From Paracoccaceae bacterium (GTDB lineage: Bacteria; Pseudomonadota; Alphaproteobacteria; Rhodobacterales; Rhodobacteraceae): a DNA stretch of 64,000 bases. The notes under the pieces were generated by a model. The model made no database searches. It was given only the letters and a program-made list of their open reading frames with translations, and was not told the DNA's origin. The position numbers and the translations under genes are program-made. This document shows, in pieces, positions 3,534 through 21,746 of this stretch. The stretch spans positions 62,001 through 126,000 of the forward strand of contig JAGXGW010000064.1 in NCBI GenBank assembly GCA_024636555.1. The letters are read 5' to 3'. Position 1 is the first letter of the stretch. Every line of letters starts with the position of its first letter.

Positions 3534-4139
3534 TTGAGTGAACGTGACGGAATTTTTGCGGGCGACGATCCTTTCGAGATCGCCCGAAACTGGCTTTCGG
3601 AAGCCGAGGCTGCCGAGATCAATGATGCAAATGCGATTGCCTTGTCCACGGTAGACCCCACGGGGCTGCCCAATGTGCGGATGGTTCTGCTCAAGGAGAT
3701 CGAGGCGGATGCCTTTGTATTCTATACCAATTACGAAAGCGCGAAAGCGCGCGAGTTGGACAGCGCCGGCAAGGCGGCTTTCGTCGTTCACTGGAAATCT
3801 CTGCGGCGGCAGATCCGCGTTCGCGGACTGATCAGCAAGGAAGATGGCCCGAAAGCCGATGCCTATTACCGGTCACGCTCGCTCAAGAGCAGGCTGGGGG
3901 CCTGGGCCTCGCGCCAGTCGCGACCGCTGGGTTCGCGCACAGAACTGATGGCGGAAGTCGCAAAAATAACCGCGACAAAGGGAACCAACCCCGCACGCCC
4001 GGCGTTCTGGGGGGGATATCGGCTCGACCCGGTGGAAATCGAGTTCTGGGCGGATGGTGCGTTTCGGTTGCACGACAGGTTTGTCTGGCGTCGGGCGTCC
4101 AAAGATGACGAGTGGCAGATTGTTCGGCTCAACCCTTGA
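3534..4139 (+). CDS. pdxH: pyridoxamine 5'-phosphate oxidase
   Basis: [56 protein letters not shown]...[15 protein letters not shown]; probable TTG start within ORF 3393..4139. Confidence 0.88.
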
Positions 4140-10416: not shown

Positions 10417-10441
10417 GGAACCCAAACCTGCCGCCCGTGTT
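10417..10441 (+). promoter_or_regulatory. EcfG-type promoter candidate upstream of AI-2E transporter
   Basis: GGAAC-N17-GTT; very close (9 bp) to the annotated ATG. Confidence 0.35.
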
Positions 10442-10449
10442 GACCCTCT

Positions 10450-11463
10450 ATGTTTTCCCTGCAAAACCACTGCCGCACGGTATCAAGCCTCGCTCTGGCC
10501 GCGGTCCTTCTGCTCTTGATCGTGGTCGCGCCCGACGTTCTCTTGATCATTTTCGCGGGTATTTTGGTCAGCGTTTTCCTGGGCGGCGGCGGACTATGGG
10601 TTTCGCGGCATACGGGGCTGTCACGCGGCTTCGGCATCGCCTTGTTCATTCTGCTCATTCTGGGGGTCCTTGGCGGGATAATCGCCGCATTCTCTCCGGC
10701 GATCGTCGAGCAGTTTGACCAGCTGAGTCGAGAGATACCCAACAGCCTCGGCAAGCTGGAAGACCGCGTGAAAGACTATGAATGGGGCGAACGGATGCTC
10801 TCCGCGGTCGAGCCTTCCGGCCTGATATCGGCGGAAGGTGGCAGTGCCGCGGCCTCTGCTGTCACCAGTACCTTCGGTGCCTTGGGCAATGCTGTCATCA
10901 TCGCATTCATCGGTCTTTACGGGGCTATCGCGCCCGCAACCTATCGTAACGGCCTTGTGGCGCTTCTGGCACCCTCATTGCGCCCGGACGCGTGCCGCGT
11001 GCTGGATAAACTGGGTGCCACCTTGCAGAAATGGCTGACCGCGCAGTTCATGTCGATGTCCGTGGTCGGGGTGCTGACCGGTTTGGGCCTCTGGCTTATC
11101 GATGTGCCGTTGGCCTTTATTCTGGGGCTGATCTCGGCACTTCTGGCCTTTATCCCGAATATCGGGCCGGTGATCGCCGCCGTTCCAGCGCTTCTTCTGG
11201 CGCTCGCCGAGGGAGGCACGTCAGTCCTGCTGGTCGCTGGCGTCTATATTGTGGTCCAGACGCTGGAGAGCTATGTGATCACGCCGCTGATCCAGCAGGA
11301 AAGGGTCTCGCTGCCGCCTGCGCTCGTGATTTCGGCGCAGTTGCTGATGGGGGTACTGTTCGGCATCCTTGGTCTGGCGCTGGCCACCCCGCTGACGGCT
11401 GTTGTCATGACGTTCACGAATGAGGTCTACCTGCGCAACTTTCTGGATAAAGAGCAGGCATGA
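10450..11463 (+). CDS. AI-2E family transporter (PerM/YdiK-like)
   Basis: 337 aa polytopic membrane protein; AFIPNIGPVIAAVPALLLAL and VQTLESYVITPLIQQERVSLPPALVI motifs. Confidence 0.88.
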   Translation: MFSLQNHCRTVSSLALAAVLLLLIVVAPDVLLIIFAGILVSVFLGGGGLWVSRHTGLSRGFGIALFILLILGVLGGIIAAFSPAIVEQFDQLSREIPNSLGKLEDRVKDYEWGERMLSAVEPSGLISAEGGSAAASAVTSTFGALGNAVIIAFIGLYGAIAPATYRNGLVALLAPSLRPDACRVLDKLGATLQKWLTAQFMSMSVVGVLTGLGLWLIDVPLAFILGLISALLAFIPNIGPVIAAVPALLLALAEGGTSVLLVAGVYIVVQTLESYVITPLIQQERVSLPPALVISAQLLMGVLFGILGLALATPLTAVVMTFTNEVYLRNFLDKEQA

Positions 11464-14267: not shown

Positions 14268-14351
14268 GCGGGTGTGGCGGAATGGTAGACGCGAGGGTCT
14301 CAAACACCCTTACCTCACGGTGTGTCGGTTCGAGTCCGACCACCCGCACCA
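14268..14351 (+). tRNA. tRNA-Leu (CAA)
   Basis: GCGGGTGTGGCGGAATGGTAGACGCGAGGGTCTCAAACACCC...GTCGGTTCGAGTCCGACCACCCGCACCA; long variable arm. Confidence 0.94.
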
Positions 14352-14412
14352 ATTTCTGAAATAAGTCATTGATTTATCGGGATTTTTAACAGGCGCCTGT
14401 CGGGTCCTCCAT

Positions 14413-14640
14413 TTGGTCCCCAAGAGCACTTCGACAAAAGGTCGAGGCCGTCTTGCATGGTCCGAACAGCAACTCCTGCGCATTCCGGGCAACAGCGCCC
14501 TGACCAGGGCCTTCCGCTATGGTCTCAGTTGGCGCAAAGCGTGCGCCCGATCGGAACAGGACGGCAGAGCTGGCTCTTCGTGTGAGCCGAGACCGGTGCG
14601 GAAACCCTGGGCTGCGCCGTGACCGTCAAATGGCGCGGTA
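14413..14640 (+). pseudogene. candidate degenerate IS66-family transposase C-terminal fragment
   Basis: One frame: IPGNSALTRAFRYGLS; a second frame: RPIGTGRQSWLFV*AETGAETLG; both resemble consecutive parts of IS66 TnpC with frameshift and stop. Confidence 0.42.
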
Positions 14641-14720
14641 TCCCGGGCGGTCTACTCCAACGTGTCGGATTTGATCTCAGGCAAAGGCAGCATCGTAAGT
14701 CGGGTCCGCTACGTCGCGGC

Positions 14721-14745
14721 GGAACAATCCAGCGCAATGTTTGTT
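14721..14745 (+). promoter_or_regulatory. EcfG-type promoter candidate for the PRC-barrel gene
   Basis: GGAAC-N17-GTT (GGAACAATCCAGCGCAATGTTTGTT), 57 bp before ATG. Confidence 0.6.
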
Positions 14746-14801
14746 TTCTGAACTACCGACCGATGGATTGAACCATTAACCCAGGGAATAGGAGAAAAGA
14801 C

Positions 14802-15713
14802 ATGAAAGCGCTGACAGACGGCCTTGGTACCAAGACTTCAGGGCTCGTAGCTTCGATTCTTCTGACCATTACAGTTTCCGCTGCAACGGCACAGGAACAA
14901 ACCGAAGACCAGAATGGGGCTGACACAGACGAAAACACCTCGGAGGAATGGCAAAGCAGCCATGTCTTCCTTACGCCGTCCCAATTTCTGATTGGCCAAA
15001 ATTTACTTGATGAGGGAGAGGACTGGGGGACAATCAAGTTCCTGATGATCGATGTTTCGGACGGAAACCTGATCTATGCTCTGGCCTCGACCGAGCGGAC
15101 AATGGGGCAGTTTATCGTGGTTCCGTGGAGTGCGATCGAGCCGACCAACTGGACAGGACTGGCAGGCCCGGGACTGCGTGTGGATGCTCCGGTCGAACTT
15201 TTCCAAAATGCGCGACGCTTTGATATGGAAGATATCGTCGGACTTACGACGCCGAGTGTGGCTGTCGAGGTCGGCGAGTATTTTGCAACGACAAACGATC
15301 CCCTTGATCCAGATACGCCCGTCTTTGTCGTGGGACATAAACTGGTGGGAACGATCGCACCTCCGGCGGCGCAGGTCGCCAATCAACTGGAGGGAACCGA
15401 TGTACGCGATGCCGAGGGCACGGTCATTGGCACCATTGACGACATCATGGTCGATGTCGACATGGGGCAGGTTCCTTACGTTCTTGTCTCGACCGCGGTG
15501 TACCCTGGCGGTCAAGGCGATTGGTGGCCGATCCCGCCGCAGGCGTTGACATGGGATGCCGCGACCGAGGGCTATACCATCGACCGGACCGAGGCCGAAC
15601 TTCGTGAACTTGGCCTGTTCGGTGAACCGGCACTTCCCATAGCGATCCGGAAAAGTCTGCTCGACAATCTCTACGACTTCTTCAACCTCGATCCCTACGA
15701 CCCCGATGCCTGA
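14802..15713 (+). CDS. PRC-barrel domain-containing protein, secreted
   Basis: Signal peptide; LIGTDVRDAEGTVIGTIDDIMVDVDMGQVPYVLVS-type repeat; SD GGGAATAGGAG upstream. Confidence 0.8.
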   Translation: MKALTDGLGTKTSGLVASILLTITVSAATAQEQTEDQNGADTDENTSEEWQSSHVFLTPSQFLIGQNLLDEGEDWGTIKFLMIDVSDGNLIYALASTERTMGQFIVVPWSAIEPTNWTGLAGPGLRVDAPVELFQNARRFDMEDIVGLTTPSVAVEVGEYFATTNDPLDPDTPVFVVGHKLVGTIAPPAAQVANQLEGTDVRDAEGTVIGTIDDIMVDVDMGQVPYVLVSTAVYPGGQGDWWPIPPQALTWDAATEGYTIDRTEAELRELGLFGEPALPIAIRKSLLDNLYDFFNLDPYDPDA

Positions 15714-15745
15714 CCAATTTGGCGGGGAAATCTCACCAGTTAAAG

Positions 15746-15773
15746 ATAGCGGCCCGGATATCCGAGCCGCTAT
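15746..15773. terminator. hairpin terminator after PRC-barrel gene
   Basis: ATAGCGGC-CCGGATATCCGA-GCCGCTAT, long inverted repeat. Confidence 0.65.
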
Positions 15774-15848
15774 TTCTCTGACGGACTGTTGTAGCCGGGT
15801 CCGTCATCAACCAGGCGTGCGACCAACTGTTTCGGTGCACGGCGGTCG

Positions 15849-15874
15849 GGAACATTGCGCATCGCAAGCTGGTT
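15849..15874 (+). promoter_or_regulatory. EcfG-type promoter candidate
   Basis: GGAAC-N18-GTT (GGAACATTGCGCATCGCAAGCTGGTT), 37 bp before ATG 15911. Confidence 0.5.
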
Positions 15875-15910
15875 GAGTGAGACAAGTTGAGTGAACCGAT
15901 GGAGGATCAG

Positions 15911-16261
15911 ATGGCTCATGCAAGCGGCAAGAAGTTTGGCCCCGGCCAACAGGACCAAGGCAAAGGCGACGGCACGGGGGGAATGGCACCTGATGATGTC
16001 GACCCGCTTCCCGACAATGAGATTTTATCCAACCGCGACACCTCCCGCCATTCGGATCAGCGCGGTCATGACGGCGGACACGTCCAGAACCAGAACTGGC
16101 ATGAGCAGGTGAGCGACCACGCGCCGGGCGCAGGCGAAGCCGGCCGTCCAGGGGCCCGCTCGCGTCCCCCCCTGGTCGATGAGCCAAAGGACGACGAGCC
16201 AAAAGACGATGAGCAGGCGGAGGAAAGCAGCCAAGCGCCTGACGACACGCGCGAGGACTGA
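15911..16261 (+). CDS. hypothetical hydrophilic, probably disordered protein
   Basis: MAHASGKKFGPGQQDQGKGDGTGG...; strong SD GGAGGATCAG immediately upstream; acidic/glycine-rich composition. Confidence 0.5.
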   Translation: MAHASGKKFGPGQQDQGKGDGTGGMAPDDVDPLPDNEILSNRDTSRHSDQRGHDGGHVQNQNWHEQVSDHAPGAGEAGRPGARSRPPLVDEPKDDEPKDDEQAEESSQAPDDTRED

Positions 16262-16426
16262 ACGGCAACCCGTTGATCGACAGCGAACGCGAAGGTTCTT
16301 GAGTCCCGACCGACACAAGCCGGCGCGTCCGGATTATCGGGATCGCGCGTCAAGGTGGCGGATCAAGACAATCTGATGCGCTCTTCATCCTGTTCCGCGC
16401 CCCAGGATCAAGAAAGGACCCCCCTG

Positions 16427-17173
16427 ATGTGTCAGTGCCGGATGAATCGCCGTACGATGCTTGGCCTATCTGGTGCGGCGGCGCTGCCAGTTCTCGCAGG
16501 GTGTGATGAGGTCGATCTGGTATCCGATGAAACGGTTGAGGCGATGGGATTGGAAGCCTGGGCGGATATACGGCAAACGTCACCCGTAGCGGCAAACCCG
16601 GATCTGCAAGGCACGCTAACCCGGGTTTCGACGCAACTTCTCCGCGCCGCGGACGAGGAGCCGGACGCATGGGAGGTGCTGGTCTTTCGCGGGTCTGAGA
16701 TCAATGCGTTCGCGCTGCCGGGGCGAAAGATCGGCGTTTACGAAGGCATGTTCCAAGTCGTGGCGAATGAGGATCAACTGGCCGCGATTGTCGGGCACGA
16801 AATCGGACATCTTCAGGCGGAACATAGCCAGGATCGCATGAACGCGCAGGTTGCGAAGGGGTGGGGCATGCGCGCGCTATCACTGGTTTTGCAGCTGGGT
16901 GAGGTAGAGTATGCGGCCGAAATCGCCGCGGCACTCGGCATCGGGATCAATTATGGCCTCGTTCTGCCCTATTCGCGCCGGCAGGAACTCGAGGCTGATC
17001 GGCTGGGATTGCTGACGATGGCCGCGGCGGGGTTCCGTCCAGAGGAAGCCGTGACGCTCTGGCGGCGGATGGACGCTGCGATATCCGATCGAGCGCCAGA
17101 ATTCCTTGCCACTCACCCGGCCCCTCAGTCTCGGATAGCCGAACTCGAAGCGATGTTGCCAGAGTTGAGATGA
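16427..17173 (+). CDS. M48 family metalloprotease, lipoprotein
   Basis: NRRTMLGLSGAAALPVLAGC export signal/lipobox; VGHEIGHLQAEHS HExxH zinc motif. Confidence 0.85.
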   Translation: MCQCRMNRRTMLGLSGAAALPVLAGCDEVDLVSDETVEAMGLEAWADIRQTSPVAANPDLQGTLTRVSTQLLRAADEEPDAWEVLVFRGSEINAFALPGRKIGVYEGMFQVVANEDQLAAIVGHEIGHLQAEHSQDRMNAQVAKGWGMRALSLVLQLGEVEYAAEIAAALGIGINYGLVLPYSRRQELEADRLGLLTMAAAGFRPEEAVTLWRRMDAAISDRAPEFLATHPAPQSRIAELEAMLPELR

Positions 17174-17379
17174 GGAGGGTAAAAACGCACCGTCAGGGCT
17201 CAATGCGGCTGCGTGTGTTGTCATCTCCGGGAGACGGCCCTTTCTTCGGGACGGCTTGACGCGGCATGACCACTCTATCGGTCTCCGGGTTCGAGGCAGA
17301 AATCGACGGAGGTGCGCATGGCCCTTTTGATCCTAAGCCTTGACGGACGCTCATTTCGGGATCGAGCAGGTCAACGAAA

Positions 17380-17404
17380 GGAACCATCCAGTCACGACGG
17401 CGTT
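17380..17404 (+). promoter_or_regulatory. EcfG-type promoter candidate (exact GGAAC-N16-CGTT)
   Basis: GGAACCATCCAGTCACGACGGCGTT, 35 bp before ATG 17439. Confidence 0.68.
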
Positions 17405-17438
17405 TTTCCAGTGAATTAATAAATGCAGGGATTACACA

Positions 17439-17801
17439 TTGAAAAAGCTACCCGGACTTTTGGCCTTATCCGCTCTCGCGTTTGCGGCGTTTGGTCAGCC
17501 TGAATCGGCCGTTGCGCAGCCTGTGGGATGTCCCCCCGGACTGGCGAAGAAGAACCCGCCATGCGTTCCGCCGGGGCAGGCGAAGAAGGGTCAGTCCGCC
17601 ACGGAATGGCGAAATCATCGGTTGGGAACAACACCGAGCCAAGATGATCTGAATTTTTTGGACAACTATTGGCAGTATGATCTACCAAGCTTGCCCCGCG
17701 GCCAACGCTACGCTGTTTTCGACAATCGAATTGTCGTTGTTGATCGCGAGAGCTACGAGATCTTGCAACTCATCAGGGCCTTTACTGCCCTGACCTATTG
17801 A
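17439..17801 (+). CDS. small exported protein (RcnB/DUF1236-like tail)
   Basis: Signal peptide; CPPGLAKKNPPCVPPGQAKKG linker; RYAVFDNRIVVVDRESYEILQLIRAF. Confidence 0.6.
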   Translation: MKKLPGLLALSALAFAAFGQPESAVAQPVGCPPGLAKKNPPCVPPGQAKKGQSATEWRNHRLGTTPSQDDLNFLDNYWQYDLPSLPRGQRYAVFDNRIVVVDRESYEILQLIRAFTALTY

Positions 17802-17894
17802 GGCAGCGGGAGGCTTCTTGAAATCGGCCGCGTCGGCCATGAAAGCCTTTCGGACGTCCCCGAAGTCGTGTTCGTTCTCGGCAACGTGAACATG

Positions 17895-18272
17895 TCATTG
17901 GAACAGGCCGGACAGATTAGTTCGCAGCTTCCTTTCATCCACCGGTTTGTTCAGCAAAGGGGCCTCTTTCAGCGCACCGCTAAGATGGCTGCGCCGGTAG
18001 GCTGTCAAAACGAGAAAGGGGCGCTCTTTCGCGCGAAGGGCCTCTGCGACAGGCTCGGAAGTTGTGCCATTCAGTTGCACGTCCAGAACAGCGGCGTCGG
18101 GGTCTTCGTGCTCTATCAGTTGAAGCGCTGCATCGACGGTTGCGACGGGTCCAAGCACCGTGCAGCCGAATTGTTCGAGAATGTCGCGAACATCGAGCGC
18201 GATCAGCCGTTCGTCTTCGAGCACAAGGATACGTCGACCGGCAAAAGTTTCAGGCGGGATGATGGTCGTCAT
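17895..18272 (-). CDS. single-domain response regulator (receiver only)
   Basis: RRILVLEDERLIALDVRDILEQFG...DAAVLDVQLNG...LTAY...NKPVDE receiver signature residues. Confidence 0.88.
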   Translation of the reverse strand: MTTIIPPETFAGRRILVLEDERLIALDVRDILEQFGCTVLGPVATVDAALQLIEHEDPDAAVLDVQLNGTTSEPVAEALRAKERPFLVLTAYRRSHLSGALKEAPLLNKPVDERKLRTNLSGLFQ

Positions 18273-19396
18273 TGTTCTAGATCCACTGGAAATTCGAGAC
18301 GGTAGTGCAGGCCCCACTCCTCATATTTAAGCTCGGCCTCACCGTTCAGTTCATATGCAACGACATCCTCCAGCAAACGGGTGCCGAAACCCTTTCGCTG
18401 GGGCGGGGTGATCTCGGGGCCGTCCGCTTCCCGCCACATCATCGAAAGCCTTTCGGAAACCCCTCTTGCATCCAGAAGATGCCATTCAAGATGTACTTTC
18501 CCGCCGGCGACGGAAAGGGCTCCGTACTTTGCTGCATTCGTCGCGAGTTCGTGCAGCGCCAAGCCAAACATCCGGGCCTGCCGCGGCGACAGTCCAACCG
18601 AAGTCCCCTCAATTGTGATCCTGCGAGGATCGTCCTGTCGATGCGGCGCAAGGATTTCGTGGGCAAGCTCCAGCGGATCGGCAAGCTCGTTGTCGTTCTC
18701 GAATACGAGCCCTTCAGCGGTCGACAACGCATGCAGCCGATCGATATAGGCGTCGCGATACTCAGTCGCAGTGCGGCCAGCGACAGATGTCTGAGACGCG
18801 AGTGCCCGTACGAGGCCGAGCAGATTTTTAACGCGGTGCCCTAACTCTCTCGCCAGAACCCCTTGCTCGCGGACAGCACGCTCCAGTTCTTTATGTGATC
18901 GCACCCGCTCGATCGCCGCTGCAAGAAGGTTTGCGTAGGTGCGCAGGAAGGCCACATCGTCGTCGCTGAATTCGCGCCGCTCTCGGGAATCGACCTCAAG
19001 AACGCCGAATGGGTCACCTTCCCCGACGATGATGACGTTCACCATGCTCCTTACACCGTGACGCCGCAGAACGTCGGGTGTTTCAAAGCGATCTTCCGCG
19101 TCGAGATCCGGTGACACAACGGGCTCGTCGGACCTCAGAGCGTAGCCGCCCGGCGACTTTTCATGGTCTCCGAAGGTTTCGTGGCCAACGACGCCGGGTT
19201 GCCAGTTCACGCCGCTGCGCAGGAGCATCTCGCCACGCTTTGGAAAATGCTCGAGCACCTTCACAAGCGGAACATCAAGTGCACCTGAGACCAGTTCGAC
19301 GGCCCGATGAAGCAGATCGTCGATGTCGTTACACCGAAAGGCGAACAAGCCGAAATCGGCAAGTGCAGCACGTTGGAGTTCCAGGTTTTGTGTCAT
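18269..19396 (-). CDS. GAF domain HWE-family sensor histidine kinase
   Basis: N-terminal GAF; LARELGHRVKNLLGLVRALASQT H-box, LALHELATNAAKYGALS N-box, WREADGP WxE motif; ATGA overlap with receiver gene. Confidence 0.88.
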   Translation of the reverse strand: MTQNLELQRAALADFGLFAFRCNDIDDLLHRAVELVSGALDVPLVKVLEHFPKRGEMLLRSGVNWQPGVVGHETFGDHEKSPGGYALRSDEPVVSPDLDAEDRFETPDVLRRHGVRSMVNVIIVGEGDPFGVLEVDSRERREFSDDDVAFLRTYANLLAAAIERVRSHKELERAVREQGVLARELGHRVKNLLGLVRALASQTSVAGRTATEYRDAYIDRLHALSTAEGLVFENDNELADPLELAHEILAPHRQDDPRRITIEGTSVGLSPRQARMFGLALHELATNAAKYGALSVAGGKVHLEWHLLDARGVSERLSMMWREADGPEITPPQRKGFGTRLLEDVVAYELNGEAELKYEEWGLHYRLEFPVDLEQ

Positions 19397-19440
19397 CGCC
19401 TACTGTCGACCATTGGACATTGAAGATCTTACAGTATGCC

Positions 19441-19465
19441 AACATATTCGTAGCGATACGGTTCC
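19441..19465 (-). promoter_or_regulatory. EcfG-type promoter candidate for HWE kinase-receiver operon
   Basis: Minus strand GGAAC-N17-GTT, 45 bp before kinase ATG. Confidence 0.6.
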
Positions 19466-19616
19466 CGCAGAGCGGATTCCGCGTGGGTTCCCGGTTCTTC
19501 GTGCCATGAGACCTGCGGGACTTTGAGATGGCAGTGCTTGCTTTGCCTGGCTCGGACGTGAACCCCAAAGTAATCTGATCCTTAATGCGCCAATCAAGAG
19601 TCTAATCCGCAGACGT

Positions 19617-19844
19617 TTAAAGAACAGGGGTGTGCCACGGCCACCAGATCGCCAGCAGACCGATCCAGAACAGCAGGATCATCAGCACGGCCAGCAGAGC
19701 GGCAGCCGCGCTGGGAGCATAGCGCCAGCTGTTATCACTGCGATAGAACCTGCGATCGCGGGTGTAGGGCCAGGTCGGCCAGGCAAAAACAGCAATCAGT
19801 ATTAGAAATACAAGGAACCAGAATCCAAATACGTCAATGGCCAT
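19617..19844 (-). CDS. small membrane protein
   Basis: MAIDVFGFWFLVFLILIAVFAWPTWPYTRDRRFYRSDNSWRYAPSAAAALLAVLMILLFWIGLLAIWWPWHTPVL; AAAGGAGATCGG SD. Confidence 0.65.
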   Translation of the reverse strand: MAIDVFGFWFLVFLILIAVFAWPTWPYTRDRRFYRSDNSWRYAPSAAAALLAVLMILLFWIGLLAIWWPWHTPVL

Positions 19845-19879
19845 GTCCGATCTCCTTTGTGGGGCGTGATCGCTGGAAA

Positions 19880-19904
19880 AACCATATGATGGTTCATTTG
19901 TTCC
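19880..19904 (-). promoter_or_regulatory. EcfG-type promoter candidate for small membrane protein
   Basis: Minus strand GGAAC-N16-GGTT, 36 bp before ATG 19844. Confidence 0.55.
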
Positions 19905-20127
19905 AAAACGCGTGCTGTTGTCGACCATTGCCATCAGACGCCGAACGGCCACGGATCGCGCAAGTCTGCGTGTTGGTCGCGTTCACGGCAAGGAAGTGGC
20001 TGGAGTATGCGCCCCGTGTCGCCTCATTGAAGTGCCCAAGGAGAGTCTGGTCTCAGGTCAAGCCCGGCAGCGTCTTGCCCCGTCAGCAGTCTGCGGCTGC
20101 CACCCGCCACTGTAGGGAAGCGGGCAA

Positions 20128-20340
20128 TCAGATCCGGGTTTCCGTGATCTCGTTGGGTTGATGGCGGTCCAGGATTTCGCGCGCCTGAGGTTCGGCATCC
20201 ACGGGAACAATCATCTTTAGCTCAAAGGTGTCAGATGAAAGGAATACCTTCTCTCTGGGATAGCCCTTGCCGATCAGATCATCGTAGGCGTTCCGCGCCG
20301 CCTCTGCCGTCTCATATCTTGCCGTCAGTGTTTTGGTCAT
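20128..20340 (-). CDS. small soluble protein, YflT/general stress protein 17M-like
   Basis: MTKTLTARYETAEAARNAYDDLIGKGYPREKVFLSSDTFELKMIVPVDAEPQAREILDRHQP; weak family resemblance only. Confidence 0.55.
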   Translation of the reverse strand: MTKTLTARYETAEAARNAYDDLIGKGYPREKVFLSSDTFELKMIVPVDAEPQAREILDRHQPNEITETRI

Positions 20341-20413
20341 TCTCTCGATCCATGAAGTGGGAGCTGTCTATGCCAGCGGGCGTCGCACGTTCAATCGTGC
20401 GGCGTGTAAGAGT

Positions 20414-20439
20414 AACTTTAAGACATTCACGTTTGTTCC
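20414..20439 (-). promoter_or_regulatory. EcfG-type promoter candidate
   Basis: Minus strand GGAAC-N18-GTT, 74 bp before ATG 20340. Confidence 0.5.
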
Positions 20440-21065
20440 ACACTTCGAGAAACCCTGTAGGTACGGCCGATATGTATCTTGGCTGACATGCTTTGTGCCC
20501 CCTCCCGCGCCGCGGTGTCCGGATGCCTGCTGACAGGATCGATTCGTATGGACCGCCGCATCGCGCGCAGCAGATTTGCCGGAAATCCCCGCCTTGCGAT
20601 CGTATTGGTGCGTCTTCGTGGACAATGGCATCAGGGCTAGTCATGAAAAAGCCATGTTTAAAGAGGGTGCGCGATCCGCGCCACTGATGCGGATATGGAA
20701 ACAGGTTTTGGTGACTTGAGGGCTGTCGAGACGCTTACCCCCGCATTTTTGCAGGAATACCGCCTCTCTTAAGTGCCATCGCGCTGCACTGTCCCGACCT
20801 TCGCGACAGTGCGGCCTCATCCTTTCGGGCAGCTTTGGTGACTATGGCAGAAGCAGGGCGTTTTCTGGGACAAATCTTGTTTGGGGCGGCCGCCTCTCGG
20901 GCTAGTGCTGGTGCCTCGGTCGACGGCGGTGGCCGGGGAGAGGCGGGTGACCATGCGCCTGCTGTCCGACAGACCGGCGCGCTATTCAGGAGGCTGCTTG
21001 ATGCCATGTGAACCCATCTTTCAGCATATCCTGCCCCGCCCATTGCACGGCGCGAGGGCACAAGG

Positions 21066-21746
21066 ATGACAGACCTCCGACAAGCCGCCCGCTCCGGCCG
21101 CGCCGCAGAAGGCGGGGCGACATTCGGCATCGACGGCTTCAGCCTTGAACGCACTCAGGTGGCGTGTTTCACCCCCGGAACGGCGATCGCCACGGCGCGC
21201 GGTGAGCGTCTGGTCGAGGAATTATACAGCGGTGACCGCATCGTCACCCGCGACAACGGCATTCAGCCGATCCGCTGGATCGGCAGCAAGCGGCTCTCGA
21301 CCCTCGATCTGGCGCGCAATCCGCATCTTTGCCCGATATTGCTGCGGCGCGGATCACTGGGGGACAACCTGCCGGAACGCGATATCTGGGTCAGCCCGAA
21401 CCACCGAATACTGGTGAACAGCGCGCAAACCGCGCTGCATTTCCACGAGCAGGAGGTTCTCGCCGCCGCCAAACATATGACCGGCGGGCAGGGGATCGAT
21501 TCCGTTCAGGTGCGCACGGTGACATATATGCATCTGCTGTTCGACCAGCACGAGGTGATCCTGTCCAGCGGATGCTGGAGCGAGAGCTTCCAGCCCGATG
21601 CCCAGCGGATCCAGGGCTTCGGTCATGCCCAGCGCGCCGAAATTCTCGAGCTTTTCCCCGATCTGCGCACGGATCAGAGACAGGATGCCTTTCAGCCCAC
21701 ACGGCGCGTTCTGAACCGTGACGAGGCCTTGCGCGTAGGGCGTTGA
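21066..21746 (+). CDS. stand-alone Hint (Hedgehog/intein) domain protein
   Basis: CFTPGTAIATARGERLVEELYSGDRIVTRDNGIQPIRWIGSK plus FDQHEVILSSGCWSESFQP. Confidence 0.8.
   Translation: MTDLRQAARSGRAAEGGATFGIDGFSLERTQVACFTPGTAIATARGERLVEELYSGDRIVTRDNGIQPIRWIGSKRLSTLDLARNPHLCPILLRRGSLGDNLPERDIWVSPNHRILVNSAQTALHFHEQEVLAAAKHMTGGQGIDSVQVRTVTYMHLLFDQHEVILSSGCWSESFQPDAQRIQGFGHAQRAEILELFPDLRTDQRQDAFQPTRRVLNRDEALRVGR

Follow-up and report, generated by a model that had tools for sequence, protein, structure and literature searches.

The window analysed here, a 64,000-nt stretch of contig JAGXGW010000064.1 from a Paracoccaceae bacterium, contains a 6.7 kb segment beside a tRNA-Leu gene that we consider, with high confidence, to be an acquired general stress island whose six transcription units carry EcfG-type promoters and would be induced together by stress. 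The eight genes form the following units: the PRC-barrel gene; the genes at 15911 (116-aa protein) and 16430 (M48 peptidase); the RcnB-like gene; the HWE kinase and receiver genes; the DUF3309 gene; and the gene at 20128. The original prediction of a co-regulated stress island with its own sensor kinase is supported at sequence level by intergenic CGTT-type sites, motifs upstream of homologues and an EcfG-type sigma factor gene. The segment is organised as follows (aa, amino acids; IS, insertion sequence).

14268–14351, plus strand: tRNA-Leu(CAA), left edge of the insertion site
14352–21065: DNA absent from sister genomes G152, G153 and G154 (right edge uncertain, about 20640–21160)
14438–14628, plus strand: decayed IS66 transposase fragment, 76–80% identical to two IS66-type transposase genes of G151
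14721–14745, plus strand: predicted EcfG-type promoter, GGAAC-N17-GTT with a TGTT −10 element
14802–15713, plus strand: exported PRC-barrel protein (PF05239, two stretches)
15849–15874, plus strand: predicted EcfG-type promoter, GGAAC-N18-GTT with a GGTT −10 element; motif conserved upstream of homologues
15911–16261, plus strand: 116-aa hydrophilic stress-type protein without a Pfam family; homologues on plasmids of Paracoccus, Actibacterium and Rhizobium
16430–17173, plus strand: M48 peptidase lipoprotein (PF01435; lipobox LAGC read in the sequence)
17380–17404, plus strand: predicted EcfG-type promoter, full GGAAC-N16-CGTT
17439–17801, plus strand: small exported RcnB/DUF1236-like protein (sub-threshold PF11776/PF06823)
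17895–18281, minus strand: SdrG-like single-domain response regulator (PF00072; best PDB match SdrG, 5ieb)
18269–19396, minus strand: GAF-HWE histidine kinase (PF01590 and PF07536), overlapping the receiver gene
19441–19465, minus strand: predicted EcfG-type promoter of the kinase-receiver operon, GGAAC-N17-GTT with a TGTT −10 element; motif conserved in Loktanella and Rhizobium etli 8C-3
19617–19844, minus strand: small membrane protein, DUF3309 (PF11752, above cut-off)
19880–19904, minus strand: predicted EcfG-type promoter, GGAAC-N17-GTT with a GGTT −10 element
20128–20340, minus strand: 70-aa protein of no assigned family (no match in Pfam or NCBIfam)
20414–20439, minus strand: predicted EcfG-type promoter, GGAAC-N18-GTT with an AGTT −10 element

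All six GGAAC-N17/18-GTT motifs originally described were recovered as exact matches in place and on the expected strand. Each is intergenic and oriented to a start codon 34–73 nt away (GTT-to-start gaps of 56, 36, 34, 44, 35 and 73 nt), distances also seen for many validated targets of Sphingomonas melonis, where the motif takes the form GGAAC-N17-20-GTT (PMC6599016); the pattern used for Rubellimicrobium thermophilum is GGAAC-N16-17-C/GGTT (PMC12148442). The description of the motifs as co-oriented holds only relative to each motif's own gene, as the strands are split three plus and three minus. The site at 17380–17404 is, as reported, a full GGAAC-N16-CGTT.

Chance is a poor account of this clustering, in agreement with the earlier claim. 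GGAAC-N17/18-GTT occurs nine times in the full window, with six of the occurrences inside 5.7 kb; the three outside the island lie at 3981 and 34727 (intragenic) and 10417 (intergenic). In dinucleotide-preserving shuffles of the island, a mean of 0.38 sites was obtained (maximum 5) and six were reached in 0/1000; shuffling its 2.4 kb of intergenic DNA alone gave a mean of 0.15 (maximum 3), with six reached in 0/5000, and a scan statistic over 300 whole-window shuffles did not exceed 4 against the observed 6. When the spacing was varied (GGAAC-Nx-GTT, x=5–40) between tRNA-Leu and the gene at 21066, four matches were returned for N17, two for N18 and none or one for every other spacing; the same scan gave no 17/18 peak in the rest of the window.

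The genome-wide motif scan suggested in the original prediction gave a divided answer. Raw totals showed no excess over a reversed-pattern control (113 versus 149 and 38 versus 59), indicating that the signal lies in position and clustering, not in counts, which by themselves carry little information in a G+C-rich genome; position relative to genes was used instead. By this measure, the CGTT-type sites are strongly intergenic: GGAAC-N16-CGTT is intergenic in 23/38 cases, with about 5 expected (p=4e-12; expectation of 12.5% from the coding density of three sampled stretches, using a simple codon-usage gene caller). The genes that follow these sites represent the usual general-stress repertoire, including csbD and a PRC-barrel gene on contig C6, a DUF892-type gene on contig C33 and, identified by sequence reading, Pmp3-like, DUF2945-like, DJ-1-like and YeaQ-like genes. 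It could be argued that the six island sites are chance matches or belong to another regulator, as the genome totals fall below the control and five of the six lack a full CGTT. We regard this explanation as highly improbable given the peak restricted to spacings 17 and 18, the intergenic and oriented positions, the shuffles in which six sites were never matched and the retention of the motif upstream of homologues.

Homologues of the gene at 15911 on plasmids of Paracoccus versutus, P. yeei and R. etli CFN42 (p42f) have an oriented site about 27–37 nt upstream, while in Actibacterium the homologue occupies third position in a row of genes that has the site at its head. Kinase homologues occur in Loktanella sp. 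SALINAS62 (88% identity; two nearly identical copies) and on plasmid pRsp8C3c of R. etli 8C-3 (75% identity), both with the site upstream. It had been suggested that the 15849 site might also serve the M48 gene, and an operon shared with the gene at 15911 is probable; the M48 homologue of Sinorhizobium sojae lies behind a csbD-like gene that has the motif upstream. In Loktanella sp. SALINAS62, the kinase-receiver operon is present twice with near-identical flanks (L065 and L066), and in L066 a nearby fasciclin-PRC gene is likewise preceded by a site (8650–8625). Plasmid searches with the genes at 20128 and 19617 returned no matches.

The original prediction depended on an ecfG homologue being present in the genome, and the assembly (3.11 Mb, 79.6% complete) encodes one EcfG-type sigma factor (L033:6344-6910, contig C33). 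Its best PDB match is 5uxx (1.1e-32), which we take to be the Bartonella EcfG–NepR complex; the same entry is the best match for the nepR-linked EcfG of a sister genome and is not the preferred match of a different extracytoplasmic function (ECF) sigma factor of the genus. In the tree, the C33 sigma factor falls in a clade with 5uxx and canonical EcfGs, where it pairs with the second EcfG of G154 (support 96/95; long branches); the genus's other ECF group stands separately (100/100). Neither nepR nor phyR lies beside its gene, as they would for a canonical EcfG1. Because of this and its grouping with the second EcfG of G154, the sequence data identify it as an orphan, non-canonical sigma factor of the EcfG2-like type. 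Its gene is preceded by its own GGAAC-N17-CGTT, 38 nt upstream. In G152, G153 and G154, phyR faces nepR-ecfG with overlapping divergent GGAACC-N15-CGTT promoters between them, which fixes the consensus for the genus. The neighbours of phyR in G154 are not syntenic in the window genome, and the near-complete congeners G150 and G155, unlike G152–G154, gave no full-length PhyR match; the general-stress switch thus seems patchy within one genus.

The comparison with sister genomes suggests that the 6.7 kb segment was most likely acquired as an accessory island. The order DsbB, YqaA, tRNA-Leu, Hint-type gene is kept in G152, G153 and G154, where the distance from tRNA-Leu to the Hint-type gene is 0.8–0.9 kb as opposed to 6.7 kb in the window, and tRNA-Leu lies downstream of YqaA in 6/6 sister genomes. 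The segment therefore combines two features of a genomic island, a position beside a tRNA gene and absence in relatives. In G150 (L104), the DNA after the same tRNA-Leu is different and apparently includes an IS-type transposase gene, suggesting that the site may be an insertion hotspot.

The same distribution would also result if the sites are of EcfG type but the island is an ancestral one that the sister species have lost. In the sister loci, 0.8–0.9 kb of unrelated DNA separates tRNA-Leu from the Hint-type gene, so that these are not clean empty sites, and in two other sisters the flanks lie on different contigs. However, none of the six congeners has the PRC-barrel gene, nor does any of the 396 other family genomes searched (E<=1e-20), the G+C content of the island (57.9%) is below that of its flanks (60.9 and 64.4%), a transposase remnant marks its left end and close homologues reside on plasmids of other orders. 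We therefore think ancestral loss unlikely and infer a direction of transfer into this lineage.

Several observations weigh against the reading of an acquired, EcfG-driven island. Searches of the 79.6% complete assembly gave neither NepR (PF18557) nor a full-length PhyR. Five of the six −10 elements are not CGTT, and in Sphingopyxis TGTT proved weaker than CGTT in vitro (PMC7083833), from which the candidate promoter at 17380 should be the strongest of the six. A search up to 22000 for a candidate attachment (att) sequence gave no exact copy of >=12 bases from the tRNA end, and no integrase was seen in the interval, leaving the right edge only bracketed. The motif is not universal among homologues either: kinase homologues in Jannaschia (L067) and in G047 (L035 and L057; 60–63% identical) lack it, as do the RcnB-like homologues (0/7, at four loci on plasmids and three in congeners). 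In addition, the gene starts and coding regions are computational predictions.

Apart from the kinase-receiver pair, the island products (the PRC-barrel, 15911, M48, RcnB-like, DUF3309 and 20128 proteins) look like envelope or small stress proteins on the basis of their sequences, although the label 'YflT-like' given earlier to the 20128 product has no Pfam support. The pair, previously described as an HWE kinase-receiver operon, does resemble the general-stress HWE/SdrG type. The kinase has an HWE_HK dimerisation domain (PF07536, 3.6e-17), and the PDB ranking of the receiver is headed by SdrG (1.3e-15), followed by 2lpm/2m98 (3.4e-13), presumably entries for Sma0114, and then by PhyR receivers. 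As with the SdrG/MrrA receivers of the FATGUY type (PMC5964349), a single receiver is found with an HWE kinase, but the PFxFATG motif of those proteins is not present in the window receiver, which reads PFLVLTAY. In Caulobacter, HWE kinases donate phosphate to the related MrrA, which hands it on to PhyK and thereby to PhyR (PMC5964349). The window pair is likely to feed back on the stress switch or to supply it with an additional input. A possibility that we hold to be less probable, yet a serious one, is that the pair stands outside the general-stress circuit as a separate regulator resembling Sma0113/Sma0114 of Sinorhizobium that merely lies under an EcfG promoter. This would fit 2lpm/2m98 as the second-best structural relative and the failure to find PhyR in this genome; in contrast, the general-stress receiver SdrG scores better and PhyR receivers come next.

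In the mechanism that we propose, the six promoters would be recognised by a sigma factor of the EcfG type; the most likely candidates are the orphan EcfG2-like protein of contig C33 and/or a canonical EcfG missing from the assembly. Stress would free this factor or raise its level, switching on the six units together; the envelope and small proteins would then protect the cell, while the induced kinase-receiver pair would either supply the PhyR relay with phosphate or draw phosphate from it.

Outside the island, the window contains a seventh intergenic GGAAC-N17-GTT (10417–10441, TGTT −10 element), which ends 8 nt before the ATG of the gene at 10450; the 337-aa product of this gene looks like an AI-2E/PerM-type permease. 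The site may reflect a leaderless transcript, a later start or a chance match.

By following homologues of the island genes and the sigma factor, we reached three further clusters that are comparable to, or denser than, the window island. The locus of the second ecfG of G154 (L140, G154:C8:112000-124000) has 13 N17/18 sites in 12 kb; DUF892, PRC-barrel and Ku-like genes are also found there. Conjugative plasmid pNS6002 of Actibacterium sp. EMB200-NS6 (L177, about 16.4–30.3 kb) has 11 N17/18 sites in 14 kb, located before a DUF2383/Mn-catalase row (including the 15911 homologue), superoxide dismutase (SOD), otsB, YihY and other genes; it is promoter-dense like the window island, but plasmid-borne and with another gene set. 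Around ecfG2 on plasmid IV of P. aminovorans (L179), 12 N17 and 2 N18 sites occur in 20 kb, mostly 29–63 nt before SOD, PRC-barrel, Ku, ferritin-like and other genes, with IS66 nearby; this cluster is larger and has its own sigma factor, whereas the window island encodes a kinase-receiver pair but lacks a sigma factor. Control stretches totalling 91 kb showed no 17/18 peak. Not every EcfG2 locus is such an island, as the locus of the C33-like sigma factor of P. alcaliphilus has one site in 20 kb and no peak.

Descriptions of the general stress response usually treat it as a conserved core system. The similar clusters on plasmids of related bacteria suggest that ready-wired stress regulons move between species. 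In its general form, the proposal is evenly balanced in our estimation: in Rhodobacterales, and perhaps rhizobia, general-stress regulons would travel as compact mobile modules with an EcfG promoter on each operon that plug into whichever EcfG the host has. Such modules could also carry an orphan EcfG2 or, like the window island, a kinase-receiver input by which the host stress switch is tuned. Exchange of such promoter-tagged cassettes, if true, would help to explain why regulons differ so strongly between alphaproteobacteria; a simple spacing scan would find these islands on plasmids and beside tRNAs, and they would provide candidate stress-tolerance genes among unknown small proteins.

No description of mobile promoter islands was found in the portions of the open-licence literature available, in which plasmid-borne EcfG2 is described. 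The non-canonical EcfG2 carried on a plasmid of R. etli (PMC3892343) is the nearest counterpart of the C33 sigma factor, being likewise EcfG-like without nepR or phyR beside it; compact promoter islands are not described in the available part of that paper, and in the window genome sigma factor and island lie on different contigs. With the EcfG/PhyR/NepR regulon as known, for example, from S. melonis (PMC6599016), the island shares its promoter motif and distance to the gene, PRC-barrel and small unknown targets, and an HWE kinase and SdrG-type receiver as parts. It differs in that neither NepR nor PhyR could be found in the incomplete genome and in that eight genes in six units are gathered in one 6.7 kb insert. 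The components are thus known; what is new is their packaging as a compact, apparently mobile, multi-promoter EcfG island.

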